Source: a virus. Taken from it: DNA of 64,000 nucleotides. A model generated the notes under the pieces. The model searched no databases. It saw nothing but the letters and a program-made list of their open reading frames with translations, and was not told the origin of the DNA. Below are positions 31,417-54,809 of this stretch, one piece after another. The number at the start of each line of letters is the position of its first letter. Position 1 is the first letter of the stretch. Both the position numbers and the translations under genes were made by a program. The DNA lies in the IMG/VR virus record IMGVR_UViG_3300032242_002041, positions 62,001 through 126,000 of that record. The stretch is one strand, 5' to 3'.

Positions 31417-31422
31417 AAACAC

Positions 31423-36421: not shown

Positions 36422-37364
36422 CAACTATTGCGTTATCTGCACAAACGATCGACTATGGAAGCTCACGGAATTGCTGTCATTTCTTAAAGAGAATCAGGGG
36501 CAGTCGATTATACTAGATATTAATCCAGAAGCCATTGATCTTGAAAAGATCGGACTGTATAAAATACTAGATTTATTTGATTTTGAGTCAGTAATAATTT
36601 TTACATATAACCCGTTCGAGTGTCATAACAAGTACACTATAGTTTGTAAAAACACAACTGTTTTTTTAGAAGAAGCGGCAGTAGTTGATCCTTTGCTGCA
36701 CCAATGGACCAAAGATAAAATATTTTTAACTATGTATCGTCGCCCTACTGCCGGTCGCCTTGGGTTAGCAGGTCATCTGTTTGCTAACCATAATGACATT
36801 AGTCATATACATTTTTCTGCTAGTACATCAACAGATGAGCTGGAACTTTACGAAATGAATAAGTTATTAACTTACGATTTACCTTCTATCATCGATGCTG
36901 GCAAAATGATTCCTAACATGCCGTTGGAACTTGCTAGCAGTCAGTACTATTCAAAATTTGGGCTCATGTCAAATTTTGATTCTGCTCTGAGAGAGTACTA
37001 TCGACAAATATTAATTGATATTGTTGGAGAAACACATGTGTCAGGAGATACCTTTTTTCCTACAGAAAAAACCACAAGACCCATGTGGCTTAAAAAACCA
37101 TTTATAGTATTTGCTTCTAAAAACTATCTTGATTACCTACGGCAGATGGGGTTCAGAACATTTAGTGATTTTTGGCCCGAGGATTATGATGGATTTGACG
37201 GACGAGATCGTTACATTAAAATACTAGAGTTAATTGACAACTTAGCTCAAAAATCAATTGATGAACTAGAAAAAATGTACTGGGACATGCAATACACACT
37301 TGATCATAATTATAATCTTTTATTGAATCAAAACTACAACACTACCATTAGCTATCTACTATGA
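36414..37364 (+). CDS. Glycosyltransferase-like protein (GT10-like TEK motif), copy 1
   Basis: 316 residues. The C-terminal half has FFPTEKTTRPMWLKKPFIVF, then YLDYLRQMGFRTFSDFWPE and a YDxxDxRxRYIKI helix. The same order (TEK, hydrophobic strand, LGF-x-TF, D/E-E-S-Y/F-D) is found in the proteins at 38760 and 54799. The TEK loop recalls the donor-binding region of fucosyltransferase-type GT-B enzymes, hence the tentative label. The N-terminal half is unlike the other two. Overlaps the next gene by four bases. Function inferred. Confidence 0.5.
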   Translation: MTNNYCVICTNDRLWKLTELLSFLKENQGQSIILDINPEAIDLEKIGLYKILDLFDFESVIIFTYNPFECHNKYTIVCKNTTVFLEEAAVVDPLLHQWTKDKIFLTMYRRPTAGRLGLAGHLFANHNDISHIHFSASTSTDELELYEMNKLLTYDLPSIIDAGKMIPNMPLELASSQYYSKFGLMSNFDSALREYYRQILIDIVGETHVSGDTFFPTEKTTRPMWLKKPFIVFASKNYLDYLRQMGFRTFSDFWPEDYDGFDGRDRYIKILELIDNLAQKSIDELEKMYWDMQYTLDHNYNLLLNQNYNTTISYLL

Positions 37365-38776
37365 CAAACAAAGGCGACGAAGTCACACAGGATTTTAAAT
37401 CAAAGTTCTTAGGTGATGCAGAATTTATGAAGGAGAATCTCGGTCCAGCACTCTGCTTGGCCAAATGGAAGCAAGTTAGTCTACACTTGCCCACAGGACT
37501 TAATAACAGTTGCTATCATCCTCCCTTACATCCAATCGATGCTACCCTATTAGCAGACAATCCCAGCGCACTGCATAATACTCCGCACAAGAAAGAACAG
37601 CGTAAAATTATGCTCAAACAAGAACGCCCTGCAGAGTGTAGTTACTGCTGGGCTATGGAAGACAATAATAAACTAAGTGATCGTCACTACCGTTCTGGCG
37701 AGCCATGGGCTGCTAAAGACTTTAATATTGTTGTAAATTCAATAGGAGATGAAGATGTTATACCTAGCTATGTGGAAGTTAATTTTAATCATGCTTGTAA
37801 CTTGGCTTGTAGTTATTGTAGTCCTCAATTCAGTAGCACATGGCAGCAAGAGGTCACTAAATGGGGAGGGTATCCTACTAGTACTATTCATAACGATCCT
37901 AGTCATTTCCGTGGTCGTAATTTACCGATTCCTAACTCACAGCCTAATCCTTATGTAGATGCATTTTGGGAGTGGTGGCCTACCTTATACCCAGAATTAG
38001 AACACTTCCGTATGACCGGTGGCGAACCCATGTTGGACCGGAATACCTATAGAGTATTTGACTATGTGCTGGCCAATCCTAAACCCAACTTACATCTTAA
38101 TGTAACTAGTAACTTCAGTGTGGATGAAAAGACCTGGCAAAAGTATTTAGGCTACACAAAAGAATTATGCCAAGAAGGTCGTCTTGAACACTTTATGCAA
38201 TATATTAGTCTTGATTCATTTGGTCCACAAGCAGAATATATCCGCTACGGCTTAGACTTTGACCTACTATGGGATCGCGTTAATCAATTCCTTACAGAAG
38301 TTCCTAGTTACAATAGTGTGACGTTTATTGTCACTATGAATAATTTGAGCGTAACAGGCCTGCCTAACTTGATGGCTGGTATCTTAGGCCTACGTAAGCT
38401 GTACTCAACAACATACCAACGTGTATGGTTTGATACTCCTGTACTACGTCAGCCCGCATGGCAGAGCTTGCAGATACTACCGGAAAGCTATGCTGAACAG
38501 TTAGAATACTTGTGGGCCTGGATGCTACGTCAAATTGAAACAGAAGACACACGCTTCCAAGGATTCAAGGACTATGAAATAGCCAGACTTGACCGCGATA
38601 TTGCCTGGATGCGTGATGGACAGACGCTAGATCCTGCGTATATTAATCAATGTAAAGCAGACTTCTTTCGTTTCTTTAACGAAGCTGATCGCAGGCACGG
38701 TACAGATTTTCTTGCAACCTTTCCAGAAATGACTACCTGGTGGAAGGAGTGCGAATATCATGCTAGGCAGTCGTAA
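37361..38776 (+). CDS. Radical SAM protein, N-terminal twitch type, CHHP-like subclass
   Basis: 471 residues, the longest complete radical SAM protein here. An N-terminal cluster (Cys near 30, SCYHPPLHPID near 47-57, CSYCW near 92) precedes CNLACSYC near 145-152 and TGGEPML near 217. The arrangement, auxiliary-cluster Cys before the radical SAM core, is the N-terminal twitch family. The Cys/His motif is shared with 39835 and 48892 (SCHHPPAHKID and SCHRVDQHTID). It would reductively cleave SAM to start a radical reaction on an unknown substrate. ATGA overlap upstream, 17-base overlap downstream. Confidence 0.88.
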   Translation: MTNKGDEVTQDFKSKFLGDAEFMKENLGPALCLAKWKQVSLHLPTGLNNSCYHPPLHPIDATLLADNPSALHNTPHKKEQRKIMLKQERPAECSYCWAMEDNNKLSDRHYRSGEPWAAKDFNIVVNSIGDEDVIPSYVEVNFNHACNLACSYCSPQFSSTWQQEVTKWGGYPTSTIHNDPSHFRGRNLPIPNSQPNPYVDAFWEWWPTLYPELEHFRMTGGEPMLDRNTYRVFDYVLANPKPNLHLNVTSNFSVDEKTWQKYLGYTKELCQEGRLEHFMQYISLDSFGPQAEYIRYGLDFDLLWDRVNQFLTEVPSYNSVTFIVTMNNLSVTGLPNLMAGILGLRKLYSTTYQRVWFDTPVLRQPAWQSLQILPESYAEQLEYLWAWMLRQIETEDTRFQGFKDYEIARLDRDIAWMRDGQTLDPAYINQCKADFFRFFNEADRRHGTDFLATFPEMTTWWKECEYHARQS

Positions 38777-39842
38777 GTTAATTGTAGACACACACAGTGA
38801 AATTTACAGCATGATTCGTAATTGTGCTGATGGTATATTTTGGAATCTGGAACAGCATATTCAAAAAAATGAACTGGTGCCTGATGCAATTTATGTAATT
38901 GGTCGAGAACAAACACGCCTGTATAACAAACAACTGCGTACACTGATTGAAACCGCTGGCATAAAAGTTATCTTTAGTAATCCACACGAAGGGTCTGAAA
39001 CTTTAAAAAATCACTGTTATCAGTATGGCATTGCAGATTTGGTCTTGTCGGGTAAAATTTTATTAGTTGGTGGCGGTGATATGGAAAGCTTTTGGCCTCA
39101 TTTGCAGTATGATAGTTTTTTACCTAAAATTTTAAATTATGATGAAAATCTTTTGGCCATTGCAGATTACAAAGAAAAGTTTACAACACAACGTCCTTAT
39201 AAATTTTTGTTGCTGAATGGTCGAGCACGAGAACATAGAATACAACTGCTGGCTAAACTTGAAGGCATATTGGATCAAGCAATCTGGACCAATTTAGATT
39301 CTTCTGCTGGTCCTATACGACCGCTGGATCCAAGGTATGAATACAGCCATGTGATCAGCAACACACCACTGCCAGTTTCTGGATTTGTCAAACATCAGTT
39401 GTTTGATAACAAATGGGGCGATGTTTATATCAAACCAGAACTATATCAAGATACCTATTTTAGTATAGTTACCGAAACTGTGTTTGATTACCCGTACAGT
39501 TTTAGAACAGAAAAAATTTGGAAACCCATAGCAATTGGGCATCCTTGGATAGCAGTAGCCAACGCAGGCTTTTACAGAGACATGCACAATTTAGGATTTC
39601 AAACATTTAAAAACACAATCGATGAGTCATTTGATCAAATTGAAAACAATGCGGATCGTCTGGATCGCATCGCTCAAGTTGTTCTGGACTTATGTCAACA
39701 AGACCTTGTGACTTTTATAAAAGAGTGTTATAATGTATGTAAATACAATCAGCAACACCTTGCTGAACTAAGTCAAAAAGTTCCGCAAGAGTTCCCCAAC
39801 CGTTTTTTCCAATTTATTAAGAAATATCAATTCAATGAATGA
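38760..39842 (+). CDS. Glycosyltransferase-like protein (GT10-like TEK motif), copy 2
   Basis: 360 residues. Residues about 205-300 include YFSIVTETVFDYPYSFRTEK followed by IWKPIAIGHPWIAVANAGFY and LGFQTFKNTIDESFD, the pattern shared with 36414 and 54799. The N-terminal half (PDAIYVIGREQTRLYN...) is different and could be an acceptor domain. It lies between two radical SAM genes, overlapping them by 17 and 8 bases, which argues that transfer and radical chemistry belong to the same pathway. The sugar donor is unknown. Confidence 0.55.
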   Translation: MLGSRKLIVDTHSEIYSMIRNCADGIFWNLEQHIQKNELVPDAIYVIGREQTRLYNKQLRTLIETAGIKVIFSNPHEGSETLKNHCYQYGIADLVLSGKILLVGGGDMESFWPHLQYDSFLPKILNYDENLLAIADYKEKFTTQRPYKFLLLNGRAREHRIQLLAKLEGILDQAIWTNLDSSAGPIRPLDPRYEYSHVISNTPLPVSGFVKHQLFDNKWGDVYIKPELYQDTYFSIVTETVFDYPYSFRTEKIWKPIAIGHPWIAVANAGFYRDMHNLGFQTFKNTIDESFDQIENNADRLDRIAQVVLDLCQQDLVTFIKECYNVCKYNQQHLAELSQKVPQEFPNRFFQFIKKYQFNE

Positions 39843-41172
39843 CTTAGAGTTTCGTAAGCAGGTTCTTGACACTAAAAGTGCCAGCTTTTGTGCGGCCAAA
39901 TGGTACAATGCAACTATTTGGCTAGGTAGTGGTATGACTACAAGCTGTCATCATCCACCTGCACACAAGATTGATCTAGAGGAAATTAAAACTCGTCCTA
40001 GTGCTATACACAACACAGTAGAAAAGAAGATAGATCGACTAAACATGCAGTTAGGCAATCGTCCCAGAGGTTGTGAGTATTGTTGGAAGATCGAAGACAT
40101 GGGTCGCGATGCCATTAGCGACCGTGTATATAAAAGTAAAATTTACCCTATAGAGGCTTTAGATGAAGCAAATAACACCCCACACCAAGCGGACATCAAT
40201 CTTCGTACACTTGAAATCGCATTCGATCGCACTTGCCAATTTGCTTGTAGCTATTGTAACCCTGCTTTCAGTAGTACATGGGTTCGAGACATACAACGCA
40301 ACGGCCCCTATGAGCGTCTGGTGTCTGATGGGCGTAATCACTTTACTCACAGTCACGATAGTGCTCAACTATACCGGTTTGGTGAAGTTAATCCATATAG
40401 CGAAGCGTTCTTTAAGTGGTGGGAAACAGACCTACACAAGACTCTTCAAGAACTAAGAATCACCGGTGGTGAGCCGTTAATGAGCGGTGAAACGTGGAAG
40501 CTGATTGATTGGTTTAAAAATAATCCTGGACGTAGTCAAACACGCTTGGCTATTAATAGTAATCTAGGCAACGAAGTTGATGTAGATAGATTACTAGACG
40601 CAACTCAAAATATTAGTTTAGATTTGTATACCAGTATGGAAAGTGTTGGCCAACCAGCAGAGTATATCCGTGATGGCTTGAACTATTCAGCTTGGGTTAT
40701 GAACATGATCAAGTTGATGGATAGTAAGCGTCTGCGTGGCCTGCACGTTATGTGTACTATTAATGCATTATGCTTAGATACACTTCCAAAACTGCTGACA
40801 GTGTTCATGCGCTGGAAACACCAGTACGGACCGGACTTTCCTAATTTTACTTTAAATATTTTAAGGTTTCCTAGTTTTCAAAGCCCGCTAGTTTTACCAG
40901 ATGATATGCGTACACGTCACAAAGAACAATTGCAAGCCTGGCTTGACACCAATACTACCGATCCTATGTTACAAGAGCACGAACGCAACCATGTACAACG
41001 CCTGATTGATTATTTAGACGTAGTTAAAACTCCGCACAGTGATGCTTTTGAAATGCCCAAGCTACACAACGATTTTAAACAATTTTATCAACAATATGAT
41101 CAACGTCGTGGCAAGAACTTTACACAAACATTCTCTAACTTAGCAAAGTGGTATGACTCAATACAAATATAA
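39835..41172 (+). CDS. Radical SAM protein, N-terminal twitch type, CHHP subclass
   Basis: 445 residues. Cys near 18, SCHHPPAHKID near 35-45 and CEYCW near 79 form the N-terminal auxiliary-cluster region; CQFACSYC near 132-139 binds the SAM cluster and ITGGEPLM near 206 contacts SAM. Closest in layout to the proteins at 37361 and 48892, which suggests these three arose by duplication. The C-terminal 150 residues are helical with RRGKNFTQTF, similar in position to RRHGTDFLATF of 37361. Overlaps the next gene by 20 bases. Confidence 0.88.
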   Translation: MNDLEFRKQVLDTKSASFCAAKWYNATIWLGSGMTTSCHHPPAHKIDLEEIKTRPSAIHNTVEKKIDRLNMQLGNRPRGCEYCWKIEDMGRDAISDRVYKSKIYPIEALDEANNTPHQADINLRTLEIAFDRTCQFACSYCNPAFSSTWVRDIQRNGPYERLVSDGRNHFTHSHDSAQLYRFGEVNPYSEAFFKWWETDLHKTLQELRITGGEPLMSGETWKLIDWFKNNPGRSQTRLAINSNLGNEVDVDRLLDATQNISLDLYTSMESVGQPAEYIRDGLNYSAWVMNMIKLMDSKRLRGLHVMCTINALCLDTLPKLLTVFMRWKHQYGPDFPNFTLNILRFPSFQSPLVLPDDMRTRHKEQLQAWLDTNTTDPMLQEHERNHVQRLIDYLDVVKTPHSDAFEMPKLHNDFKQFYQQYDQRRGKNFTQTFSNLAKWYDSIQI

Positions 41173-42412
41173 CTCCGCCGATCTAGTACAGCCTGTAGAG
41201 CTGACAGAACGTGAAGAATTCTTATTAAAAGATTCAAAAACGTTTTGCATCTATCCATGGATACACTTACACGCTTACCCAACAGGCGAAGCATATCCTT
41301 GCTGTCATGCTGAAATGGCATACCCTGTGGGCAATGCTCGTTATAAAACACTAGAAGAAATTTATCGTGACGCACCTATGCGCAGCCTACGTGATGATAT
41401 GTTAAACGAGCGTCCTAATCCTGCTTGTGGTCGTTGCTATGAGCAAGAAGAGTCTGGATTTTTTAGTGGCCGCCGATCGGCCAACAAGCACCACGGGCAT
41501 CATATCAAGCGCATCGATGATGACAAATTTCAAATGAGCTACTGGGACATACGCTTCAGTAACCTGTGTAACCTAAGTTGTCGTAGCTGTGGACATATAT
41601 TCAGTTCAAGCTGGTATCAGGATCAGGCCAAATTAGCCGGTGGCACATGGAAGGAACAGAATCAGGCATTAAACTATGCCGGACGCACAGAAACAGACAT
41701 GTGGGAACAGTTGATTCCGCACTTGGACTATGTAGAACAAATATATTTTGCTGGCGGCGAGCCATTAATGATGAAAGAGCACTATAATATTTTAGATGAA
41801 CTAGAACGTAGAGGTCGCTTTGATGTGCGTTTAATTTACAATACTAACTTTACACAAACTAAGTTAAAAGATCGCACAGTGTTTGATTATTGGAAGAAGT
41901 TTAAAAGTGTAGCGGTTGGCGCAAGTTTAGACGATCAACACGGTCGTGCTGAATATATTCGCCGCGGCACAGAATGGCATAAAGTACTAGCTAATCGTGC
42001 TGAAATGATTCGTACTTGTCCAAATGTAGATTTTTATATAAGCCCTACATTAAGTATAATGAATGCTTGGAGTCTGACAGATTTTCATCGCCAGTGGACC
42101 GAAACAGGGCTAATACGGGCACAGGATCTTAATGTAAATATTCTTCAGGACCCAGCATACTATAGAATAGATATTGCCACACCGGATTATAAACAAAAAC
42201 TAATTGCTCGTTATCAAGAGCATCTTGAATGGTTACGTCCGCAAGACCCCTTACAACGTGCAACAGTGGGATTTGAAAGTGCTATTAATTTTTTACAAAC
42301 CACAGATAATACTGCACTGCTACCAAAGTTTTGGGCAAAGACGCACGAACTTGATGCAATACGTAACGAGAACATACTAGAAGTAATACCCGAATTGAAA
42401 GAATTACTATGA
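41153..42412 (+). CDS. Radical SAM protein, N-terminal twitch type, CxxPW...CC subclass
   Basis: 419 residues. FCIYPWIHLHAYPTGEAYPC followed by C gives the N-terminal cluster near residues 30-51; CGRCYEQEESG lies near 92; CNLSCRSC near 139-146 and FAGGEPLM near 199 complete the radical SAM core. This C-x-x-P-W ... CC form is the commonest version of the family. The start at 41153 overlaps the previous gene by 20 bases; the downstream ATG at 42409 overlaps its stop by four. Substrate unknown. Confidence 0.88.
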   Translation: MTQYKYNSADLVQPVELTEREEFLLKDSKTFCIYPWIHLHAYPTGEAYPCCHAEMAYPVGNARYKTLEEIYRDAPMRSLRDDMLNERPNPACGRCYEQEESGFFSGRRSANKHHGHHIKRIDDDKFQMSYWDIRFSNLCNLSCRSCGHIFSSSWYQDQAKLAGGTWKEQNQALNYAGRTETDMWEQLIPHLDYVEQIYFAGGEPLMMKEHYNILDELERRGRFDVRLIYNTNFTQTKLKDRTVFDYWKKFKSVAVGASLDDQHGRAEYIRRGTEWHKVLANRAEMIRTCPNVDFYISPTLSIMNAWSLTDFHRQWTETGLIRAQDLNVNILQDPAYYRIDIATPDYKQKLIARYQEHLEWLRPQDPLQRATVGFESAINFLQTTDNTALLPKFWAKTHELDAIRNENILEVIPELKELL

Positions 42413-43626
42413 ACATTCCACACGATAAATTTTGCGTACTACCTTGGGTCAGTTTAGAAACCAGCCCAATTGGCACAGTACGTCCTTGTTGTCTAGCCGA
42501 GGATGAACTGGTAGACAATGATGGCAATAAATTTGATTTGTCTACTGCTAGTTTTAGTAGCATACAAACAAGTAACAGTATGCAACGCTTGCGACAAGAG
42601 TTTATAGATAAAAAACAACCACAGACTTGTCGTAAATGTTTTCGTGAAGAACGTGCAGGCCGTACCAGTAAACGTATGCATACCTTGGATAGACTTAAAC
42701 ACATGCTACCCGATCAAGAGTGGACAGCAGATGCCAAGCCTTTGATGTTTTTAGATTTAAAATTAGGAAACATTTGCAATTTAAAATGTCGTATCTGCGG
42801 GTCATGGAGCTCCAGTACCTTTGCTACGGAAGAACTACAGTGGTTAAGATATAACGAAGATCGCAAAGATAATCATCACTATCGGATGTTACAGCAAGGC
42901 GCATGGCCTAGAGAAAATCCTACATTTTGGACTGAAATAGAAAAAGTCAGCGAGCAAATACAGTATATAGAATTTACCGGCGGCGAACCCTTTATGATTC
43001 GGGAGCATTTTAACATGCTACAAGGGTTAGTTGATCGTGGAATTGCCAGTGGGATAGAAATACACTATAATACCAACGGCACACAATGGCCAGAACATGC
43101 AGAAGCTATATGGCAGCATTTTAAAGCAGTTGAAATAGCATTTAGTATTGACGATGTGGGTGAGCGTTTTGAGTATCAACGCTCAAATGCCGTATGGACA
43201 GAAGTAGAGGCAAATATAGCTCGCTTTAAAGAATTAAAAAATCGTAATACAAATATACAATTACAGGTATGTAGTACTGTTAATGTGTTCAATGTTTACT
43301 ATCTTGAAACCCTGGCTAACTGGATTGGCCAACAAGGATTTGATTTTGTTTACTGGAATATGATGCACGAAGCATATTATTTTAGTATTAATACTCTGCC
43401 TGAAACAGCTAAACAAGCCATTGCTGAACATTTGATAACAGCTCAAGTTGACGGTCGCACAAGAGTAGAATTTGACCGCATCATAGATTTTATGAATAAC
43501 GGCGTTAGTCTTGATGGTAATATTCTGCGTATGCGTATAGCCGATTTAGATCGCAAACGAGAACAAAACTTAGCTCAAGTCAAGCCAGAGTTCGCTAAAC
43601 TTATAGATTATAATGGACCAGACTGA
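42409..43626 (+). CDS. Radical SAM protein, N-terminal twitch type
   Basis: 405 residues. FCVLPWVSLETSPIGTVRPC plus C opens the protein at residues 7-27; CRKCFREERAG near 71; CNLKCRIC near 122-129 and FTGGEPFM near 189. It is the shortest and most compact complete CxxPW member, starting almost directly with the cluster, so it shows the family minimum. The region CSTVNVFNVYYLETLANW resembles the same segment in the left-edge protein (SIMPTISIMNVYYID). ATGA coupling with 41153 and a 14-base overlap with the next gene. Confidence 0.88.
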   Translation: MNIPHDKFCVLPWVSLETSPIGTVRPCCLAEDELVDNDGNKFDLSTASFSSIQTSNSMQRLRQEFIDKKQPQTCRKCFREERAGRTSKRMHTLDRLKHMLPDQEWTADAKPLMFLDLKLGNICNLKCRICGSWSSSTFATEELQWLRYNEDRKDNHHYRMLQQGAWPRENPTFWTEIEKVSEQIQYIEFTGGEPFMIREHFNMLQGLVDRGIASGIEIHYNTNGTQWPEHAEAIWQHFKAVEIAFSIDDVGERFEYQRSNAVWTEVEANIARFKELKNRNTNIQLQVCSTVNVFNVYYLETLANWIGQQGFDFVYWNMMHEAYYFSINTLPETAKQAIAEHLITAQVDGRTRVEFDRIIDFMNNGVSLDGNILRMRIADLDRKREQNLAQVKPEFAKLIDYNGPD

Positions 43627-44908
43627 TACCCTGTGCATGGCACCGTGGACACACACTTATCTAAGTCCACAAACAGAACGCCGTATGTGCTGTGCTAGCC
43701 GCGAACCTGCACAGAGCTTTGAACAGTATATAGATACTGGTTCTGGAACAGGCCAATACCATCCACTAACTCTTGAAGAACACTGGAATTCAGAGCATAT
43801 GCGTTCGGTCAGACGCAGAATGATGGCTGGGGAAACTTTACCCGAGTGCGACGTGTGTAACAGTAAACTATTAAACACAGACGTTTACCGCAGTTATTTT
43901 AATCAATTATTTGCTCACAAGCGTGATGAAGTTATAGCCAACACAGACGCCACTGGTTATACTACTGTAAAACCGGTTAGTTGGGATTATCGTTTTAGTA
44001 ATCTCTGCAACTTTAAATGTCGTACATGCGGGGACATGTTGTCTAGCAGTTGGGAAGTTGAACAACGCACCAACAATATGATTGACTGGACAAATAGTAA
44101 AAACAATTGGATGCGCCCAGCGGTACGAAAAGAAATTAGTCAGTTCCAAGATACTCAAATTGAGCAAGAGTTCGCCCAAGCAGTAGAACAACATCGTGTA
44201 GAAGAAGTATATTGGGTCGGCGGCGAACCTTTGATGTATGAACAACACTGGCGCTATATGCGTCGTATAATTGAATTAGGAGATGGACCACGTGTTTACG
44301 CTAGATACAATACTAACCTTAGTCGTGTTAATTACAGGGGTGTCAGCTTGTATGCTGATATTCTTGCCCACATTCGTGACTGGCAAATCTGCGCAAGTCT
44401 TGACGGAACAGGAGCCACAGGAGAATACATCCGTACAGGACTGGACTACCCTGCTTGGCTAGAAAATTTTAAACAAGGACTTGACTATGCACAGCATCGT
44501 AGACAGATGCGTATAGACTTTACGCTGACCTTACCAGGCTTGTTTGAAGTAGCACGTATACAGCAACTAGCAGATGAGTTGGGAGTAGACATATTGGCCA
44601 AAGTAGTATTCAGCTTTTCGCCAGATATTATCTTAAGCCCGTTAGCATTGCCTAGAGAGTTACTGGACAAAACGATAGATAGTCTAGTAACCAATTTGCC
44701 TGCAGGTGCATTACAGGACGTGTTGCTACAGTTAAAGCATCGTCCTACATTTAGTGAACAATGGCCAGATACACATCAAGCTGGATTAGTTCGAGGCAAA
44801 CAACGTATGCTAAAATTAGAAGCCATACGCGGCGATGCTTATCGACTTGCGGATATATTAAATAATGATAAAGATATAGGAGCATGGTATGAATCAATTG
44901 TTACTTGA
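43613..44908 (+). CDS. Radical SAM protein, N-terminal twitch type
   Basis: 431 residues. LCMAPWTHTYLSPQTERRMC followed by C near residues 5-25; CDVCNSK near 83; CNFKCRTC near 131-138; WVGGEPLM near 201. The insert between the SAM cluster and GGEP includes an acidic, Gln-rich helix. Fifth of a row of enzymes separated only by one transferase-like gene. The stop lies 20 bases inside the following gene. Substrate unknown. Confidence 0.88.
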   Translation: MDQTDTLCMAPWTHTYLSPQTERRMCCASREPAQSFEQYIDTGSGTGQYHPLTLEEHWNSEHMRSVRRRMMAGETLPECDVCNSKLLNTDVYRSYFNQLFAHKRDEVIANTDATGYTTVKPVSWDYRFSNLCNFKCRTCGDMLSSSWEVEQRTNNMIDWTNSKNNWMRPAVRKEISQFQDTQIEQEFAQAVEQHRVEEVYWVGGEPLMYEQHWRYMRRIIELGDGPRVYARYNTNLSRVNYRGVSLYADILAHIRDWQICASLDGTGATGEYIRTGLDYPAWLENFKQGLDYAQHRRQMRIDFTLTLPGLFEVARIQQLADELGVDILAKVVFSFSPDIILSPLALPRELLDKTIDSLVTNLPAGALQDVLLQLKHRPTFSEQWPDTHQAGLVRGKQRMLKLEAIRGDAYRLADILNNDKDIGAWYESIVT

Positions 44909-46033: not shown

Positions 46034-46034
46034 T

Positions 46035-46568: not shown

Positions 46569-46656
46569 AAATATTTACAATCGTATTACACTTGAAATTC
46601 GTTATCGCAAAAAGTTAAAAGAATTGCGCAAAAGAGATCCCTTTATCTACAAATGA
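46555..46656 (+). CDS. 33-residue basic microprotein, copy 2
   Basis: Starts MSWIKNIYNR and ends RDPFIYK, net charge about +8. Matches the copy at 45932 without gaps. Its start overlaps the 3' end of the preceding gene by 14 bases, exactly as copy 1 does with the gene before it, and its stop overlaps the carbamoyltransferase start as ATGA. No Cys, no leader-core layout and no signal peptide. Either a small regulator or membrane/nucleic-acid-binding peptide, or a substrate of the nearby enzymes; the sequence does not decide. Confidence 0.75.
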   Translation: MSWIKNIYNRITLEIRYRKKLKELRKRDPFIYK

Positions 46657-48107
46657 ATATTCTAGGTATTAGTGCAGGGTTTCATGACGCCTCTGCTACA
46701 GTAATCGACAGTGCAGGTAATATAGCGTATGCTGGACACGCAGAACGTTATAGCAAACGTAAGAATGACCCAGATTTACACCCAGCAATGTTTTGGGAAT
46801 TAGCCTGCGGACGTCATATTGATCATATTGCCTATTACGAAACTCCTTGGAAGAAACAGTTACGTCAACTATATTCAGGACAAGGTGTAGAGTGGTCAAA
46901 GTTAACTACTCATCAGATACTGAAGAAGCAACTGCAGGGATTCTTCAGCCATGTTCCTACTACAACATACAATCATCATTTAAGTCACGCAGCCGCAGGC
47001 TTTCAAACAAGTCCGTTTGATCAGGCCACAGTAGTTGTTATTGATGCCATTGGAGAGTGGGATACTATTAGTATTTTTGGAGCAGAATATAGTAGTGCAG
47101 GCCGCGCAACATACAAGCGGCTTTGGAGACAACGTTATCCTCAAAGCCTTGGATTATTTTATAGTGCTATTACAGAACGTATCGGTTTACGCCCAATGGA
47201 AGATGAATATATTACCATGGGCATGAGTGCTTGGGGTAAGCCTGCATATACCGATACCATGAGTATCCTGCTCAAAGAAAACTTGCACGTGGGCATTGAT
47301 CACATGTTCTTGCCTTTGGCACGAGACGTAGACATTGCCGCAAGTGCGCAGGCCATCATTGAACAAGAGATATATAGTGTAATGCAACGAGCCCGTGACT
47401 TTGGGTGGAGCTCAAATTTAGTATATCAAGGCGGAGTTGCACTTAACTGTCTTGCAAATAGATATCTTGGTGAATATTTTGAAGAAATATGGATTATGCC
47501 TAACCCTGGCGATGCTGGTAGCAGTCTTGGAGCTGCTGCCCTCGCCTATGGTGGGCCAATTAAGTTTGATCATGCATTCCTGGGTACAGAAATCAGCGGC
47601 GACTATCCTGTTGATGCCATCATCCGTAGCTTACTCAGGGATAAGATCGTTGGAGTTGCTTCAGGACGAGCCGAATTCGGTCCTAGGGCACTGGGTAATA
47701 GAAGTCTCCTCGCCGACCCCAGAGGACCGGATATAAAGGATCGAGTAAATGAAATCAAGCGTAGACAGCAATTTAGGCCATTTGCGCCGGTTATTCTGGA
47801 GGAATATGCTGATCAGTATTTTGATATCCCTAGTGGTTTCTGTGACACTAGGTATATGCAGGTCGTCGGTCGTTGTAGGCATCCTGACCTATTTCCTGCT
47901 ATTACCCACATTGACGGTACTAGTAGGATACAGACTGTGCCTAAAGACAGAAGTGGAATCAGACAGTTACTAGAAGCCTGGCATGACAGAACCAATTGCC
48001 CTATGTTATTAAACACCAGCCTTAACATACGCGGCGAGCCAATGGTAAACGATCGTCGAGATGCCGACCGTTTTGAACAGCTATACGGAGTCAAGGTACA
48101 TAGCTAA
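46653..48107 (+). CDS. Carbamoyltransferase (NodU/TobZ/CmcH family)
   Basis: 484 residues with both domains. The N-terminal ASKHA-type domain opens with ISAGFHDASATV (residues 5-16) and contains NHHLSHAAAGF near 107-117, whose His residues bind metal; YQGGVALNC near 258 and the C-terminal GRAEFGPRALGNRS near 338-351 form the YrdC-like part. The family makes carbamoyl-adenylate from carbamoyl phosphate and ATP and puts the carbamoyl on a sugar or antibiotic hydroxyl. It is somewhat shorter than typical members (about 550-570). In this context the acceptor is probably a sugar made by the neighbouring enzymes. Confidence 0.92.
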   Translation: MNILGISAGFHDASATVIDSAGNIAYAGHAERYSKRKNDPDLHPAMFWELACGRHIDHIAYYETPWKKQLRQLYSGQGVEWSKLTTHQILKKQLQGFFSHVPTTTYNHHLSHAAAGFQTSPFDQATVVVIDAIGEWDTISIFGAEYSSAGRATYKRLWRQRYPQSLGLFYSAITERIGLRPMEDEYITMGMSAWGKPAYTDTMSILLKENLHVGIDHMFLPLARDVDIAASAQAIIEQEIYSVMQRARDFGWSSNLVYQGGVALNCLANRYLGEYFEEIWIMPNPGDAGSSLGAAALAYGGPIKFDHAFLGTEISGDYPVDAIIRSLLRDKIVGVASGRAEFGPRALGNRSLLADPRGPDIKDRVNEIKRRQQFRPFAPVILEEYADQYFDIPSGFCDTRYMQVVGRCRHPDLFPAITHIDGTSRIQTVPKDRSGIRQLLEAWHDRTNCPMLLNTSLNIRGEPMVNDRRDADRFEQLYGVKVHS

Positions 48108-48886
48108 TGAATAAAAATATTATATTTTGTGGAGATAGTTTTGCCGCCAGTTATAAGGAAGTCGGTGTGTGTTTTTATTATCCTGGTTGCCAAAATAATC
48201 CACTCAATAATAATCAAGACCGCGGTCGCGGTCCAATCAAGTGGTCCATAGCGCACCCTAGTCAAGTAGCCAGCCACTATGGATATAATTTGTATAATTT
48301 TGCATATGGTGGTAAAAGTTGGTGGTACAGTAGATGTGTAATGTTTAATTATTTGCGTGATTTTCCGGAGCTACTGGAAAATACTCAAGCCATGGTATTC
48401 TTTCATACTGACTCGCACCGTTTAAATATCAGTTCAAAATTTGAGTCTGACAACAACACCTGGAAGACCGTACAGAAATTGTGGAAAATGGATCTAATAG
48501 ACGAGGATTTTCAACCTTGGGCTCAAATGCAATGGTTTAAAGAAATTGATCAACATTTCGGTTCAGTACCTAGCATACATTTTCACTGTTTTCCAGAAAC
48601 TGTACAATACGATTCTTTTTTGCCAGGTATGAGGTTTACTACACCATTGATACACTTATCTGTAGGCGAACTCACTGGATCTGATTCAGAAATAAGTACC
48701 CAATTAAGTGACAACGAAACTCGTGTCAATCATTTAAATGCACACAATAACCAAGCATTAGCTGATGTAATTATCAATGCGTTAGATAACTATCAACCGG
48801 GTAGTTATCCTATAGACACTTCAAAGTTTGATCTGATCAATCCCAATGCCAGTAAATGGCCCACACTGGGTTATGGAACTAAGTAA
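48107..48886 (+). CDS. SGNH-hydrolase-like protein
   Basis: 259 residues. IIFCGDSFAASY at residues 5-16 is the GDS block with the nucleophile Ser, YNFAYGGKSWWYSR near 66-79 could be block II (Gly), and RVNHLNAHNNQALADVI near 205-221 has the C-terminal His in the right region. Such enzymes add or remove acyl groups on glycans or lipids. The start shares one base with the carbamoyltransferase stop, implying a joint step. No signal peptide. Family assignment is by motif only. Confidence 0.65.
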   Translation: MNKNIIFCGDSFAASYKEVGVCFYYPGCQNNPLNNNQDRGRGPIKWSIAHPSQVASHYGYNLYNFAYGGKSWWYSRCVMFNYLRDFPELLENTQAMVFFHTDSHRLNISSKFESDNNTWKTVQKLWKMDLIDEDFQPWAQMQWFKEIDQHFGSVPSIHFHCFPETVQYDSFLPGMRFTTPLIHLSVGELTGSDSEISTQLSDNETRVNHLNAHNNQALADVIINALDNYQPGSYPIDTSKFDLINPNASKWPTLGYGTK

Positions 48887-48891
48887 ACATA

Positions 48892-50178
48892 ATGAATCCA
48901 CCAATATTTCCAATACAAACAGAAACAGGGTGTCTGCTTAAATGGGCCTGGAGTACTATATATCTAGGGCAGGGCAAGACAGCAAGTTGTCATAGAGTTG
49001 ATCAACATACAATAGATCCCAATAATGTTGGTAATTTTCATAATCAACCTGAAAAGATACTGGCCAGAGAATTAATGCTCGACGGTAAATGGCCTGGCAA
49101 AGGATGCGAATACTGTAAAAAAATTGAAGATGCCGGCGGCATGAGCGATCGTATATATCAGCTAGAACAAGTTGAAAACAATAAAAATTATGAAATAATT
49201 CCCAAGGCATTGGTAAACAATCCACAGGCCACTCATGTGGTTCCTACCATATTAGAGATATACTTTAACAATACTTGCAACATGAGCTGTTTATATTGTG
49301 GCAGTCATTTTAGCTCCAAGTGGGAAGAAGAAAATCGTCGATTTGGGGAATATCGTAGTGAACGCTTGCGCTTTGGCTACAACTTGGCACAGAATCCCAA
49401 TTATGAACAAATGCTAGCCGACTTCTGGACCTGGTTAGCAAAAGACAATAATTATTTACATATTAGACAATATCAAATAGCCGGAGGTGAACCCTTTTAT
49501 CAGAAAGAATTTGATCAGAGCATTGAATTTTGGGAACAGCATCCCAATCCTGATCTTACTTTCAATATGATAACTAATCTTAAAGTGGCACCCAAAAAGT
49601 TTCGCAGCTACATAGACAAGTTTGGTGACATGGTTCGCGATGGAAAGCTAAGGAAATTACAAATCAGCAGCAGCTTAGACTGCTGGGGCCCCGAACAAGA
49701 ATATGTGCGTTGGGGATTAGATCTCAGTGAATGGCAGGAAAATTTTGAATATCTATTAGATAAACCCTGGGTGCAACAGTGCATCAACAGTGCTGTTAGC
49801 GCACTTACTATAAAGACACTGCCAGAGTTAATTAAAAATATAATACAATGGAATAGTCAGGCAGAAGGAATAAAAAAAATATACTATAGTTTTATGAGTA
49901 TCATGTATCCTAAACAAATGGATCCTGCTATATTTGGCGCTGGCGTGTTTGACGATGACTTTGCACTGGTATTAGAATTAATGGATCAAATTCCTAATCC
50001 TTCGCCTGCTGATCGGTCCAGTAGAGCACACATGCAAGGTATAGCACAACAAATAGCACAAGCACCTAGAGATGTAAACAGCATTGAGTGTTTACAAGAA
50101 TATCTTACTGAACTAGATCGTCGCCGCGATACCAATTGGCGCGAGTTATTTCCCTGGTTAGATCGAGACTGGCGCTAA
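48892..50178 (+). CDS. Radical SAM protein, N-terminal twitch type, CHHP-like subclass
   Basis: 428 residues. Cys near 12, SCHRVDQHTID near 30-40 and CEYCKKIEDAGG near 72; CNMSCLYC near 128-135; IAGGEPFY near 196. Third member of the subclass with 37361 and 39835. It ends the long plus-strand run: its stop overlaps the stop region of the convergent radical SAM gene at 50175 by four bases. No recognisable terminator fits between them. Confidence 0.88.
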   Translation: MNPPIFPIQTETGCLLKWAWSTIYLGQGKTASCHRVDQHTIDPNNVGNFHNQPEKILARELMLDGKWPGKGCEYCKKIEDAGGMSDRIYQLEQVENNKNYEIIPKALVNNPQATHVVPTILEIYFNNTCNMSCLYCGSHFSSKWEEENRRFGEYRSERLRFGYNLAQNPNYEQMLADFWTWLAKDNNYLHIRQYQIAGGEPFYQKEFDQSIEFWEQHPNPDLTFNMITNLKVAPKKFRSYIDKFGDMVRDGKLRKLQISSSLDCWGPEQEYVRWGLDLSEWQENFEYLLDKPWVQQCINSAVSALTIKTLPELIKNIIQWNSQAEGIKKIYYSFMSIMYPKQMDPAIFGAGVFDDDFALVLELMDQIPNPSPADRSSRAHMQGIAQQIAQAPRDVNSIECLQEYLTELDRRRDTNWRELFPWLDRDWR

Positions 50179-51482
50179 AACCAAGGTGCCCATTCTGGCA
50201 CTACTTCAACTAGTGGTTTTTTACTCACTGAATCTTCCTTGCGAATGTGTCTAACAAATTGAGGTATAAACTCTGGACAATGCTCTGTGTATTCTATAAC
50301 ACTAATATAGCGATCAACTAATTCTCTATAATAGTTATCGTAAATAGTATCTGCAGAAAATCTAAGGCGCCCATTGGCAAGTCTTGATAACGCTAATTGT
50401 CTTAGTTCTGGTGGCAATGCGCCCACGCCTAAATGATCTACTCTAAACACCGGACTCACGTTAATATAACTACGCGGTAAATGTATAGGATAAGTGGGTC
50501 CAATTTTATTATCATATGCCCAATTAATAAAATCCATAATACTAGTAGCATTAATGGCAGACAATACGTAGTTAATAACTGTAGATATGCTAGGATGAAA
50601 CATCAGCTCTAAACTGTTGGCCTCAACGTCAGACCATCGACATCCTCTACGCTGATACTCTATAACTGATTCAGTGCCATCGATACTGACATTGTATATT
50701 ACTTGTTTAAAATGTTTGAACTTGTCCATCAGCTCGTTGGCACTGCTGCTAGCATTGGTCAGCAAAGTTATCATGATGTTTTTAGCTAGATCTTTTTCAA
50801 TCAAGTAATCCATTATTTTATGAACTTGTTTTTGTAGCGCAGTTTCGCCACCGGTAAAGTTAATAATTTCCACACGATCCAACACTGAATAAAAATCTGG
50901 GTCTGTAGGATTTAACACTATTTTTTCTTTACGTCCTAATACCTGAACTTCAAAGGTCTGTCGCTGACTACTGGCACCTCCGGCACACATAACACAACTA
51001 TAATTACAGTAATTACTTGGATAGTAATCTAAAGTAAGTATATCTTTAACTGTGTTATTATTGGAAACAATTTCTTGAACCTCTTTAACAATATCTACAC
51101 TAAGAAATTCACTGTAAAATTTGTTGTTCATTTGTCTAGGACTGGTTGCGCCCGCCTGTTCGTTGCGAGAACAACTTGCACAATCGGATATTTGTTCCAA
51201 TTGACCGTCGATCATGGCCTGACGTATACTGCGCCAATTTTCACTGTTTCTAGAATCTACAACACTGTTATTAATTACATCCCATTTATTGCGATTATTG
51301 CTCATCACAATACTACAAGGACGAACACTGTTAGGCAGGCTATCCACAGATGTAGGAACTACATTATTAGTTTGATAGAAAGCTCCGAAGAATGGGTACA
51401 AGCATATTTTTTCTCCTAGCTCGTTATATATGTGATCAAGTTGATTAATTGGATTCATGGCATATTTCTTTAAGACTTGCAT
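50175..51482 (-). CDS. Radical SAM protein, N-terminal twitch type, GGET variant
   Basis: 435 residues from the ATG at 51482; an internal ATG eight codons on, at the stop of the upstream gene, is an alternative start. ICLYPFFGAF near 26, a C-S-I about 30 residues later, CASCSRNEQAG near 103, CNYSCVMC near 156-163, and NFTGGETAL near 207, where the usual Pro is Thr. Otherwise a normal radical SAM core. It overlaps the upstream gene by 38 bases. Substrate unknown. Confidence 0.85.
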   Translation of the reverse strand: MQVLKKYAMNPINQLDHIYNELGEKICLYPFFGAFYQTNNVVPTSVDSLPNSVRPCSIVMSNNRNKWDVINNSVVDSRNSENWRSIRQAMIDGQLEQISDCASCSRNEQAGATSPRQMNNKFYSEFLSVDIVKEVQEIVSNNNTVKDILTLDYYPSNYCNYSCVMCAGGASSQRQTFEVQVLGRKEKIVLNPTDPDFYSVLDRVEIINFTGGETALQKQVHKIMDYLIEKDLAKNIMITLLTNASSSANELMDKFKHFKQVIYNVSIDGTESVIEYQRRGCRWSDVEANSLELMFHPSISTVINYVLSAINATSIMDFINWAYDNKIGPTYPIHLPRSYINVSPVFRVDHLGVGALPPELRQLALSRLANGRLRFSADTIYDNYYRELVDRYISVIEYTEHCPEFIPQFVRHIRKEDSVSKKPLVEVVPEWAPWF

Positions 51483-52545
51483 TGTATATTATGTTTAAGC
51501 CTTGGCTAGTTACACGATTATATACTTGTTTTAGTTCAGCTATGGCTTGTTGGTGTTCAGGGTGAGCAGAGTTGCCCACAACATCGTGATTTAAATAGTC
51601 ATCCCAGGTTCCCCAATCTTCTAATCTATTAATAATACCTTGAAATCCATAGTGTGTACATAAATCAACAAATTGTTGTTGATCATTCCAATTGCCTTTT
51701 TGCAAGACAAATTTAAGTAACACATGTGCATTAGTCTGTCGAACTAGGTCCTGCAAAAAATCTAAATTTTTAATTAATTGATCAAAGCGACCCGGTTGTC
51801 GCACTTGTTCGTATACGTCGGCTGACCCGGCATCTATACTAATATAATATTGTGTAATATTGTTAACAATAGAATTGTTGTCCAATTGCTTGGATAATAA
51901 TAATCCATTGGTAAACAAACGCAAACTATGATTACTTTTGGGCTGATAGTTATGTAATAATGGACGCATAATGTTGCTGGCCAGTGGATCACCGTTGCCC
52001 GTCATTATTATGTGTGTAGGAGCATCAAATTTTTCTAATAACTCAATCACGTGATTTACCATGGCCAATCGACGGTCGTAATCAGCTCCAGAATTAGACA
52101 TGATCGGATGAGCCCTACAACTAGGACAAGCTAAATTGCAACTGTCGTCAATATTGATACTAATATAGTAGCAACGATAACTTTTGTCTATAGTCTTACT
52201 AGGACTGACAGCAGCATAATTGTTGGTCAATCGATCAGAATTTAATATTCCACAACGATCTACCGCACAATGAGTAAACTTGCGATCATCAATATCTTTT
52301 TGTAAACTACGAGCTACAGGACTAAGCCAAATGTCTTCTAGTCTAGAAAAGTTCATGATATTGCCCACTGACATGGGTAACCAAGCTTCGCATGCACAGA
52401 CAAAACATTCGCCTTTTCGGTCAATGACTAGGGTATATGATGGAAAATCACAGTGATTGGTAATGTTGAGTTTTAAATCTTTATTACGTGGTATATTAGT
52501 ATAACTGTGTTGATTGTCAATGGGAATTATTGGGTATGTATACAT
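51445..52545 (-). CDS. Radical SAM protein, divergent (GNGDP in place of GGEP)
   Basis: 366 residues. N-terminal Cys near 33, CFVCAC near 47-52 and CAVDRC near 93-98 could hold auxiliary clusters; CNLACPSC near 134-141 is an intact SAM cluster motif. The glycine motif reads MTGNGDPLAS near 181, instead of GGEP. Strand pattern afterwards (LRLFTNGLLLSK, YYISIDAGSADVYEQ) fits the partial TIM barrel. Closest in design to SPASM/twitch enzymes with reversed order. CAATAAATAG lies five bases before ATG and might act as a promoter. Substrate unknown. Confidence 0.82.
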   Translation of the reverse strand: MYTYPIIPIDNQHSYTNIPRNKDLKLNITNHCDFPSYTLVIDRKGECFVCACEAWLPMSVGNIMNFSRLEDIWLSPVARSLQKDIDDRKFTHCAVDRCGILNSDRLTNNYAAVSPSKTIDKSYRCYYISINIDDSCNLACPSCRAHPIMSNSGADYDRRLAMVNHVIELLEKFDAPTHIIMTGNGDPLASNIMRPLLHNYQPKSNHSLRLFTNGLLLSKQLDNNSIVNNITQYYISIDAGSADVYEQVRQPGRFDQLIKNLDFLQDLVRQTNAHVLLKFVLQKGNWNDQQQFVDLCTHYGFQGIINRLEDWGTWDDYLNHDVVGNSAHPEHQQAIAELKQVYNRVTSQGLNIIYNASLKEICHESN

Positions 52546-52581
52546 GGCAACTATTTATTGACCTGTTGTGCTCTTGGACAT

Positions 52582-53607
52582 TTACAAGTAGCTTTCTAGG
52601 CCGCCGCGACGACGTAAATCTTGTGTGCAGCAGGATATGCCACCATCCCAAAAGTAACTATGCCGTAGTTCTGAAATAATAGGATTAATCCTGTGCTTTT
52701 TACAAAAATCAAATACATCTTTGTTGTAGGCACTAAAGATTACATTTTCTTCATCTAGTACTAAGCAGTTAACATCAAATACTGTTTCAGCAACAAAGCC
52801 GGTCCACTTATTTAGATATGTGTCTACAAAGTTAGTAAACTCTGCGGTAGGTGTTTGCCCTTGAACATACCAGGCTCCTGGATTTGATTCCCACTTAAAC
52901 TTGCCCACTTCCATGGCAGCCCAAATACTACTATCCCAAATTTTCATTACATCCCAGCCGGGAAAGTCTTCAGCTAAATGCAAGTGCATATCATGTTTAC
53001 TACTTAAGATAACACCAGGCTTGAGAATGGCAAACACAGCATCACCATGCCCATCGGTTACAGCTTCGTGTATGCGATACTCGGGCCCCAAACAGTTTTC
53101 TACTATCCATTGTGTTTGCTCTGGTCTTAGGTAATCACTGTTATCAAAGAATACATCACGTCCTACACGCACGATACAACTAGCACTGGCACCATTCAAA
53201 ATACAATTTTCGTCCCAGTGTTTGCCGTGTGGATTAACAACTTGATCCGCATAGTTGGCACAGATGTCATTTAACTCGTCCATTGGCAAAACACGTAATA
53301 GTTTTTGCCCTAGGCTAATTTGCCAATCTCTAGGTGTAAGCGGGGGTAGTGGTGCTCCTTGCCCATTTATTTGTGCCTTTTGAAATTGATCTTTGTCAAT
53401 AAGTGTAGGACGACAAACTTTGGCCCCATACTGCTCGATAGTCTGTTGTAAATTGTTTAAATCTTCTTCGGTTTCTGACAATATTTGCTGTAATTGATTA
53501 CGCACTTGTGCGTCGTCGATAAAGTCAAAATAATCAGGGCTATATGCTCGCCCTACTATAACTTCTTCAAGTGGTTGCCAGGATGTATAACTATTAATCA
53601 TTGTCAT
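52582..53607 (-). CDS. Amidinotransferase-family enzyme (AGAT/pentein fold)
   Basis: 341 residues. The opening SYTSWQPLEEVIVGRA, a His-containing DGHGDAVFAILKPGVILSS near 185-203, and GGISCCTQDLRRRGGLESYL at the C-terminus match glycine amidinotransferase-type penteins, where the Cys after GG-x-(H/S) attacks the guanidine of arginine. Here the residue before the aligned Cys is Ser, not His. Members transfer the amidino group of arginine to amines or hydrolyse it. The gene stands between radical SAM genes, so its product may guanidinylate an amino sugar or other amine. Start is ATG at 53607; the next ATG is two codons on. Confidence 0.85.
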   Translation of the reverse strand: MTMINSYTSWQPLEEVIVGRAYSPDYFDFIDDAQVRNQLQQILSETEEDLNNLQQTIEQYGAKVCRPTLIDKDQFQKAQINGQGAPLPPLTPRDWQISLGQKLLRVLPMDELNDICANYADQVVNPHGKHWDENCILNGASASCIVRVGRDVFFDNSDYLRPEQTQWIVENCLGPEYRIHEAVTDGHGDAVFAILKPGVILSSKHDMHLHLAEDFPGWDVMKIWDSSIWAAMEVGKFKWESNPGAWYVQGQTPTAEFTNFVDTYLNKWTGFVAETVFDVNCLVLDEENVIFSAYNKDVFDFCKKHRINPIISELRHSYFWDGGISCCTQDLRRRGGLESYL

Positions 53608-53657
53608 TCTTTCTTTGTACGATATTTAAACTAAAATTATGTTGGGAGTATTTTTTA

Positions 53658-54809
53658 TCATCGCATGCTAGGATTAAAAATCTTGTCATAGTTTGTGCCT
53701 CTTGACTGATCTAAAGCAGACACATATTCTCTAAATTGTCGAAATAACTCGTTACTAAACACAGTATTTTTTAAATTCAAAACAGCAGACTTTACAGAGT
53801 CTGAAATATACGTATTATTTTTGGCCCATAAAATAAATCTATCTAAATCTTCTGGAGGAATAGATTCAGGAACAAGACATTGATTTCCTTGTACATAGGT
53901 CAAAGTCAACTCCATGCTATTTTTTTCACACCAATCTATCAGTGGAGGAAGAGAGTATGCGCTGGTATGCTGTAGCACATGATGAACACGATTTAACCGT
54001 ATGTTGGTAGTGTTTTTAATACGCTGAATATTATTTTCAATTTCTGCCCAGCAACTTGGATATCTTAGATAATCATTCATTGCTCCTGTTCCTTCTAAAC
54101 TTATAATCAAGTCTAAATTTTCAAATGGTTCTAGTTTAGCTATTAACCGGTTTGGAATCTTGCTAAAGTTGGTAGTACTCTGAAGAGTAACATCAGTGCG
54201 ATTTAAATTAACTAATTCGTCAAGTAAATTTAAAGTGCCTGGCATGGTCAATGGCTCGCCACCTGACAGATTTATTCTACGGGCTGTAGCCAAATGTGGA
54301 CGTATAAATTTTAAAAATTCAGGATCTTCCCAGGTATTGGCAACTGGCGCAACCAGTGTATGCTCTTTTATTGCAGTTACATTTTTAAATATATCTTGGT
54401 GTTTAACTAGCTCAGTATACCAGGTTGAACTGGCTGAGCTAGAACACATTATACAAGCAAGATTACAATGGGTTCCCATTCTGAATTCTAAATCATAGGT
54501 ATCAAACGAATCATTATTGTAGCCATCTCGATTGTTGGAAACGTTTCTCAGACTAGTATATCCAATATTTTCTTCATTCCAGCAATGAGAACATTCTTTA
54601 ACTCTATTTCCTTGTACAAGTTCGTTGATTAATTTGGGCTTAAATTCAGTCTGATATCGATCAAACTCTTGCCAACTTATTGAGGATTCATAATATGTTT
54701 TGTACTGGCAACATGGTGATAATGATTTACCGTCATGAGATATAGCCAGCCCATGATTAATTAAAGAACAAGTTATTTTTTCAGATTGAGTCATTGATTT
54801 AAAATTCAC
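53658..54809 (-). CDS. Radical SAM protein, N-terminal twitch type
   Basis: 383 residues. ITCSLINHGLAISHDGKSLS then PCC near 13-35; CSHCWNEENIG near 70; CNLACIMC near 114-121; LSGGEPLT near 181. A compact standard member. The start overlaps the upstream transferase-like gene by 11 bases, and 50 bases separate it from the downstream amidinotransferase. That gap carries AGTTTAAATATCG on the minus strand, which is late-promoter-like but weak. Confidence 0.87.
   Translation of the reverse strand: MNFKSMTQSEKITCSLINHGLAISHDGKSLSPCCQYKTYYESSISWQEFDRYQTEFKPKLINELVQGNRVKECSHCWNEENIGYTSLRNVSNNRDGYNNDSFDTYDLEFRMGTHCNLACIMCSSSASSTWYTELVKHQDIFKNVTAIKEHTLVAPVANTWEDPEFLKFIRPHLATARRINLSGGEPLTMPGTLNLLDELVNLNRTDVTLQSTTNFSKIPNRLIAKLEPFENLDLIISLEGTGAMNDYLRYPSCWAEIENNIQRIKNTTNIRLNRVHHVLQHTSAYSLPPLIDWCEKNSMELTLTYVQGNQCLVPESIPPEDLDRFILWAKNNTYISDSVKSAVLNLKNTVFSNELFRQFREYVSALDQSRGTNYDKIFNPSMR

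Follow-up and report, generated by a model that had tools for sequence, protein, structure and literature searches.

In this work we describe a set of five radical S-adenosylmethionine (rSAM) enzymes, encoded beside the tail genes of a virus and of its many uncultured aquatic phage relatives, a set which is ancient and has been inherited together with a carbamoyltransferase and a glycosyltransferase (GT)-like protein. The stretch analysed, hereafter the window, comprises 64,000 nucleotides and corresponds to bases 62001-126000 of a 228,286-bp IMG/VR virus record (IMGVR_UViG_3300032242_002041); genes are named by their lower coordinate. The five core enzymes, rSAM A to E (37361, 39835, 41153, 42409, and 43613), belong to a block of nine rSAM genes (37361-54809) in which the first-pass annotation had seen a biosynthetic or modification pathway carried by a virus. 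The existence of a pathway is strongly supported for these five, while the other four members are sporadic and fall outside it. As to the product, we favour, with a probability of about 50%, a single pathway leading to a tailored, carbamoylated amino-sugar glycan, guanidinylated in the freshwater phages, which would probably be placed on a tail protein.

The conservation of the quintet was examined by scans with rSAM C and rSAM D, which returned 206 and 129 relatives, respectively, with 66-88% identity for the top 80 of each. All five proteins were full length in 137 loci, representing 91 distinct five-protein sets, and among the loci with enough flank the quintet was complete in 26 of 26 marine-type and in 27 of 27 others. 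The GT-like 33808 accompanied it in every one of these loci (26/26 and 27/27) and the carbamoyltransferase 46653 in 26/26 and 24/27. The 91 sets from the first two scans and the 26 marine-type contigs add up to no fewer than 117 distinct viral contigs with the quintet in this genomic setting, both freshwater and marine, these labels being taken from contig origin and sequence grouping and not from a habitat field. In the loci from the rSAM C and D scans, the order A, 38760, B, C, D, E, 44889, carbamoyltransferase is kept with occasional inserts and is followed by the amidinotransferase on the opposite strand. The core orthologues share 40-88% identity, and every full-length one (147-161 per group) holds CX3CX2C, GGEP or GGET, and the preceding auxiliary cysteines. 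In the phylogeny, a quick tree with some long branches, each core enzyme forms one clade with both freshwater and marine members. Moreover, rSAM A was located 5.5-9.6 kb after the virion marker 28668 in 45 of 50 loci; of the remaining five, one at least (L265) belongs to a contig whose quintet was seen in other loci, farther downstream. A collection scan with the marine rSAM B found relatives in at least 598 viral stretches.

Two simple origins of the set were discarded. It is not the cargo of a single phage strain, since it recurs in marine-type and other loci close to the virion marker. Nor does it seem to be a cluster copied from a bacterium: the "bacterial" contigs with several core members look phage-like, with syntenic tail genes and, in L188, PHROG hits. 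In contigs binned as marine bacteria, the quintet (42-63% identity) has D and E in exchanged order and is preceded by these tail genes, and the remaining bacterial matches are single copies of rSAM C among mixed neighbours. L188 itself, an 83.9-kb contig assigned to a Bacteriovoracaceae metagenome-assembled genome, shows a changed order of the core rSAMs and an additional copy of rSAM B.

The nine rSAM open reading frames are intact and lie where they had been reported, six on the plus strand and three on the minus strand (Table 1), as confirmed by the reading-frame listing, family scans, and alignment. They had been described as one family. Eight of them pass the curated cut-off (170 bits) of the N-terminal-twitch rSAM model NF033640, with 216-380 bits, and 51445-52545 does not (39.5 bits). 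The SAM-cluster motif CX3CX2C is present in all nine, as had been noted, and the upstream auxiliary cysteines with GGEP/GGET in eight; in 51445 GNGDP replaces GGEP, the N-terminal domain is SPASM-like, and its group lacks auxiliary cysteines ahead of CX3CX2C. By alignment and tree position, this protein is best taken as a distant rSAM relative on its own long branch and not as a member of NF033640. Ten matches above 170 bits were found in the whole record, two of them outside the block, and none in 14 control genomes. Pairwise identity among the nine paralogues is only about 20-31%, and they are therefore old; with a separate orthologue clade for each, a recent origin by tandem duplication from a single rSAM gene was rejected. 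No solved homologue of the NF033640 rSAMs was found beyond a weak match to BlsE. The tenth rSAM expected at the left edge was also found (L012:3717-5222, minus strand); it begins left of the window, extends into it, and sits among SbcC/SbcD-like recombination nuclease genes. Another N-twitch rSAM outside the block lies at G000:179763-180878. The remark that phages have single members of this family proved an understatement: apart from the 598 or more stretches with a relative of a core member, related genomes have 7-21 NF033640 matches each, a count per whole record that includes low-scoring, nonspecific ones.

The first-pass annotation had also considered that separate acquisition with scattered neighbours would make a single pathway unlikely. 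The core genes are found together in every suitably long locus, whereas orthologues of 48892, 50175, 51445, and 53658 (at least 45% identity) are scattered over 5, 7, 4, and 0 of about 160 loci, by which a single nine-gene pathway was rejected. Since the quintet is constant while these four are not, the block is composed of a fixed core plus interchangeable rSAM cargo.

Table 1: Features of the rSAM locus and its surroundings (window coordinates).
Position	Strand	Feature	Basis
28668..29285	+	Conserved virion-region protein (phrog_11259), upstream synteny marker	53-55% to Atu_ph07/Phosso proteins
29332..30351	+	Tail-fibre/virion structural protein, chaperone-like C-terminus	PHROG tail fibre and virion matches; syntenic in relatives
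30368..31351	+	Ser/Thr-rich (31.5%) presumed structural protein, proposed glycan acceptor	Composition, alignment, synteny
31352..31422	+	Conserved intrinsic terminator and sigma70-like promoter at operon head	Hairpin, promoter motif
31734..32486	+	GT-A-like candidate, DxD-like motif	Homologous to 32437 (hhalign 99%)
32437..33198	+	Paralogue of 31734 (phrog_1903)	PHROG match, hhalign
33808..34725	+	Fixed quintet partner, GT2-like by motif only	Resembles C-terminus of 55889
37361..38776	+	Core rSAM A	N-twitch, NF033640, 296 bits; SAM and auxiliary Cys in 150/150 orthologues
38760..39842	+	Predicted GT-B-fold glycosyltransferase between rSAM A and B	AlphaFold pLDDT 92
39835..41172	+	Core rSAM B	291 bits; motifs in 153/153 orthologues; 59-63% identity to marine phages
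41153..42412	+	Core rSAM C	380 bits; motifs in 161/161; clade includes single bacterial homologues
42409..43626	+	Core rSAM D	329 bits; motifs in 158/158 orthologues
43613..44908	+	Core rSAM E	285 bits; motifs in 147/147 orthologues
44889..45944	+	Conserved orphan-fold protein downstream of rSAM E	AlphaFold pLDDT 90.5
46653..48107	+	NodU/TobZ-type O-carbamoyltransferase	Pfam PF16861 and PF02543 over cut-off
48892..50178	+	Accessory rSAM	231 bits; orthologue at >=45% in 5 loci
50175..51482	-	Accessory rSAM	222 bits; orthologue at >=45% in 7 loci
51445..52545	-	Accessory divergent rSAM, SPASM-like N-terminal domain	39.5 bits; separate clade; 4 loci
52582..53607	-	AGAT-like amidinotransferase	GRD, HxDA, GG..C motifs align to AGAT; fixed in freshwater clade
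53658..54809	-	Accessory rSAM	216 bits; orthologue at >=45% in 0 loci
54799..55890	-	Second GT-like protein, paralogue of 38760	30.6% over 108 aa, E 5.5e-11; beside amidinotransferase
55889..59086	+	Repeat protein with GT-like C-terminus	Eight ~64-aa repeats; beside amidinotransferase in freshwater loci
59043..60128	-	DegT-family nucleotide-sugar aminotransferase	Pfam PF01041
60082..61071	-	Nucleoside diphosphate (NDP)-sugar epimerase/4,6-dehydratase-type short-chain dehydrogenase/reductase (SDR)	Pfam PF01370

The partners that had been named beside the rSAM genes, a carbamoyltransferase, an amidinotransferase, transferase-like genes, and sugar enzymes, were confirmed by Pfam, motifs, and Protein Data Bank (PDB) homologues. 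Those of 46653 are the novobiocin carbamoyltransferase, GdmN, and TobZ. By alignment to AGAT, the catalytic Asp, His, and Cys motifs of 52582 read GRD, HGDA, and GGISC, and among its orthologues HGDA is kept in 101/101, GRD in 87/101, and GG..C in 88/101. Next to each of its 18 close homologues lie the carbamoyltransferase and both GT/repeat genes (54799, 55889); 17 are also near the DegT 59043 and the SDR 60082, and 16 have core rSAMs in the stored flank. In three loci (L303, L305, and L306) paired amidinotransferase and paired carbamoyltransferase matches were seen, the stored flanks yielding no match to a core rSAM. The solved proteins closest to 59043 are scyllo-inositol transaminase, the transaminase 2oga, QdtB, and WbpE, while 60082 is closest in the PDB to UDP-glucose 4-epimerase and dTDP-glucose dehydratase. 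The predicted structure of 38760 is a GT-B fold, for which Foldseek returned EXT1/2, SdgB, and FucT (probability about 1.0, E 4.5e-4, TM score 0.4-0.47). The fold of 44889 had no match in the PDB, and its relatives in BFVD are phage proteins only, Atu_ph07 included. The repeat protein 55889 has 1065 aa and the repeat motif FDYTWHPD...PGATEIKYV. A GT8 identity for 31734 and 32437 was not confirmed, with an hhalign probability below 1% against WaaJ/WaaO and only a DxD-like motif; a phrog_1903 homologue lies close to the tail-fibre genes in cyanophage ACG-2014f. None of the enzymes has a clear membrane segment, 32437 showing one weak hydrophobic stretch.

Amidinotransferases, carbamoyltransferases, DegT proteins, and rSAM enzymes all occur in the pathways of guanidino and carbamoyl natural products. 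These same kinds of enzyme would suit a free aminoglycoside-like small molecule, acting against competitors either after secretion or within the host, and a secondary metabolite has been proposed for a cyanophage carbamoyltransferase cluster (PMC7824862). We consider such a product most improbable: the block has no identified exporter or resistance gene, such a molecule would bring little benefit to a lytic phage, and the linkage to tail genes would be left unexplained.

The cassette comes after a gp6-like wedge gene and a 4454-aa virion protein, in a window that also encodes SbcD, a late sigma factor, and baseplate hub and wedge genes. This giant protein (15153-28517) is homologous to the one among the structural proteins of Atu_ph07 and contains a CBM_5_12 carbohydrate-binding module and an FG-GAP repeat. 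The wedge protein has its nearest relatives (34%) in Agrobacterium phage Atu_ph07 and Sinorhizobium phage Phosso, with further large Rak2-like phages coming next; membership in the Moraphage lineage was judged improbable, the lysyl-tRNA synthetase family being absent in 8 genomes. The Ser/Thr-rich protein 30368 is syntenic in freshwater and marine phages, with 24-34% Ser plus Thr in 20 orthologues. Of 55 distinct regions between it and the first operon gene, 50 contain a hairpin, versus 2.7 in shuffles, and 32 the promoter TTTAC-N16-19-TAyAAT, versus 0.1. The terminator arms vary yet stay complementary, and the promoter nearly abuts the start codon. The genes that follow had been described as mostly overlapping, which holds from 31423 to 45944, where overlaps of 4-50 nt leave no gap. 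A late-like NTAAATA motif precedes several structural genes and is absent at the operon head. The T4 late promoter TATAAATA occurs 0 times in the window versus 6.5 expected, and NTAAATAT is enriched between genes genome-wide. With its own sigma70-like promoter and no late-like motif, the operon is probably read by a host-type sigma70, before or independently of the late genes.

An expression ahead of the late genes would also agree with the hypermodification of DNA, in which large base modifications block host nucleases. GTs, carbamoyltransferases, and other tailoring enzymes are known from phage DNA hypermodification. Nevertheless, we regard this as very unlikely, given that the genes lie in the tail region and not with replication genes and that PF00303 (thymidylate synthase/hydroxymethylase) is absent in 8 related, perhaps incomplete, genomes, with a positive control; the Tet/JBP dioxygenase profile matched nothing, its control included.

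In the modified glycan that we favour, the SDR 60082 would convert an NDP-sugar and DegT 59043 would aminate it to an amino sugar, whose amine may be turned into a guanidine by the amidinotransferase 52582 in the freshwater clade only, while the carbamoyltransferase 46653 would carbamoylate a hydroxyl. Radical tailoring of the sugar or glycan would fall to the five core rSAMs, with deoxygenation, epimerisation, dehydrogenation, and the formation of C-C bonds as candidate reactions, not assignable to single enzymes. The putative GT-B enzymes 38760 and 54799 and the GT-A-like proteins would then assemble the glycan in the cytoplasm, before or during virion assembly, the likely acceptor being the Ser/Thr-rich 30368 or a neighbouring fibre, and the four accessory rSAMs might vary the product between strains. 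We infer the glycan from the neighbouring genes, and likewise the sugar substrate, the order of the steps, and the acceptor. This reading is favoured by the constancy and position of the quintet, with a mixed freshwater and marine clade for each member, by the GT-B fold of 38760 and the enzyme families of the carbamoyltransferase, amidinotransferase, DegT, and SDR, by the supply of an amine (DegT/SDR) next to an amine-modifying amidinotransferase in the 17 of 18 homologue loci, by the synteny of 30368 and the tail genes in freshwater and marine phages, by the lack of clear membrane segments in the enzymes and of flippase (PF01943) and initiating phosphoglycosyltransferase (PF02397) families in 8 genomes, and by the presence of other rSAM genes in the corresponding position of Atu_ph07 and Phosso. 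Several points weigh against it. To our knowledge, no substrate has been assigned to any NF033640 enzyme, and for this reason the sugar chemistry is read from the neighbours; profile comparison did not confirm the GT identity of 31734, 32437, and 33808, which resemble such enzymes by motif; DegT was seen in 9 and the SDR in 17 of the 26 marine-type loci, where the flank is limited; and position and composition are all that point to 30368 as the acceptor. In addition, the sigma70-like promoter without TAAATA fits early or middle expression, and with it, equally well, a modification of the host surface.

According to this last possibility, early enzymes would alter the lipopolysaccharide (LPS) or capsule of the host and exclude competing phages, such cargo accumulating in the host recognition region. 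The promoter is its chief support; in addition, the neighbour of two bacterial rSAM C homologues is either a GT2 enzyme or a flippase for polysaccharides, and the GTs in the pelagimyophage host recognition cluster have been read in this way (PMC7029224). We find it rather doubtful, considering the strict linkage to the Ser/Thr-rich protein and tail genes, the absence in the 8 genomes of the flippase and initiating families mentioned above, and a core that stays fixed across marine and freshwater phages with presumably very different hosts. Cargo that modifies LPS usually turns over.

Auxiliary clusters of the twitch/SPASM type are characteristic of rSAMs that modify peptides. Hence the core enzymes might instead modify or cross-link residues of a tail protein, as do the maturases of ribosomally synthesized and post-translationally modified peptides (RiPPs), with the transferases decorating it further. 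In Atu_ph07 and Phosso, rSAM genes flank a protein (L198:13119-14009, gp170 of Atu_ph07, and L199:41627-42547 of Phosso) whose ends, CHSSCHASCHNSRSRR and CHTSCHASCHSSRSRR, are conserved (CHxSCHxSCHxSRSRR), the remainder being 38% identical. The virion-protein cluster of Atu_ph07 was delimited by mass spectrometry as coding sequences (CDS) 170-215, with gp170 at its edge and not itself named as detected (PMC6102473). By analogy, this protein hints at a possible action of the rSAMs of this locus on virion proteins. Still, the Cys/His-rich CH-x-CH type repeat is restricted to these two phages: neither such a repeat nor a short precursor of that type was found in the window or its relatives, other kinds of precursor not having been searched. 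In the Atu_ph07 enzymes, SPASM-type cysteines are located at the C-terminus, and the match to the family of the window is marginal. Furthermore, RiPP pathways seldom need an aminotransferase, an SDR, an amidinotransferase, or GTs, and we think that peptide chemistry is unlikely here.

Radical SAM chemistry is costly and oxygen-sensitive. That five such enzymes persist with all their cluster-binding cysteines in the 117 or more contigs, of lake, sediment, and marine origin, speaks for an important product, presumably overlooked because the cultured phages are without the set. It is possible, and we suggest it only tentatively, that a very large group of environmental phages makes an essential virion component through a five-step rSAM pathway, with a chemistry unlike known glycan or peptide systems and a strain-specific cargo that evades or matches hosts. 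If true, NF033640 would gain a testable function, for five enzymes at once; virions might prove to bear decorations of a new class, and new radical tailoring enzymes and a further layer of phage-host recognition could come to light.

By comparison with known systems, megablast of the whole block against 50,697 annotated phage records gave no homologue. The same records held no orthologue of core A, C, and D (B and E not having been searched singly); tblastn of these three gave only 22-27% matches, in Vibrio phages K566 and K567 and in a marine single-cell virus. No description of the conserved rSAM set was found in the open-licence full-text literature. The family model NF033640 recognizes eight of the nine proteins, with the N-terminal twitch followed by the SAM motif, and it assigns no reaction and does not tell apart five ancient orthologue groups acting as a set. 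K566 and K567 are similar in that several NF033640 rSAMs (6 in K566) lie among unknown proteins in a jumbo phage, but these are 22-25% identical to the core, and no carbamoyltransferase or amidinotransferase match was seen in the stretch read. In Atu_ph07 and Phosso, the rSAM genes (three annotated in the former, at least one in the latter) come, as here, directly after the giant virion protein and the homologues of 28668 and 29332; unlike the window, the Atu_ph07 locus has no annotated carbamoyltransferase or amidinotransferase. The clusters of cyanophages such as S-SSM6a, with 8-12 genes, share carbamoyltransferases and sugar or amino-acid tailoring enzymes with the window, but they use 2-oxoglutarate oxygenases and a halogenase, radical SAM being unmentioned in that jumbo-phage survey (PMC7824862). 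The host recognition cluster of pelagimyophages is likewise a tail-region island where fibres, GTs, and, in one genome pair, rSAM cassettes are found; that cluster has been described as hypervariable, whereas here a fixed five-enzyme core with its carbamoyltransferase is surrounded by cargo (PMC7029224). We regard the locus as a variant of the phage tail-region modification island whose core is without a described counterpart.

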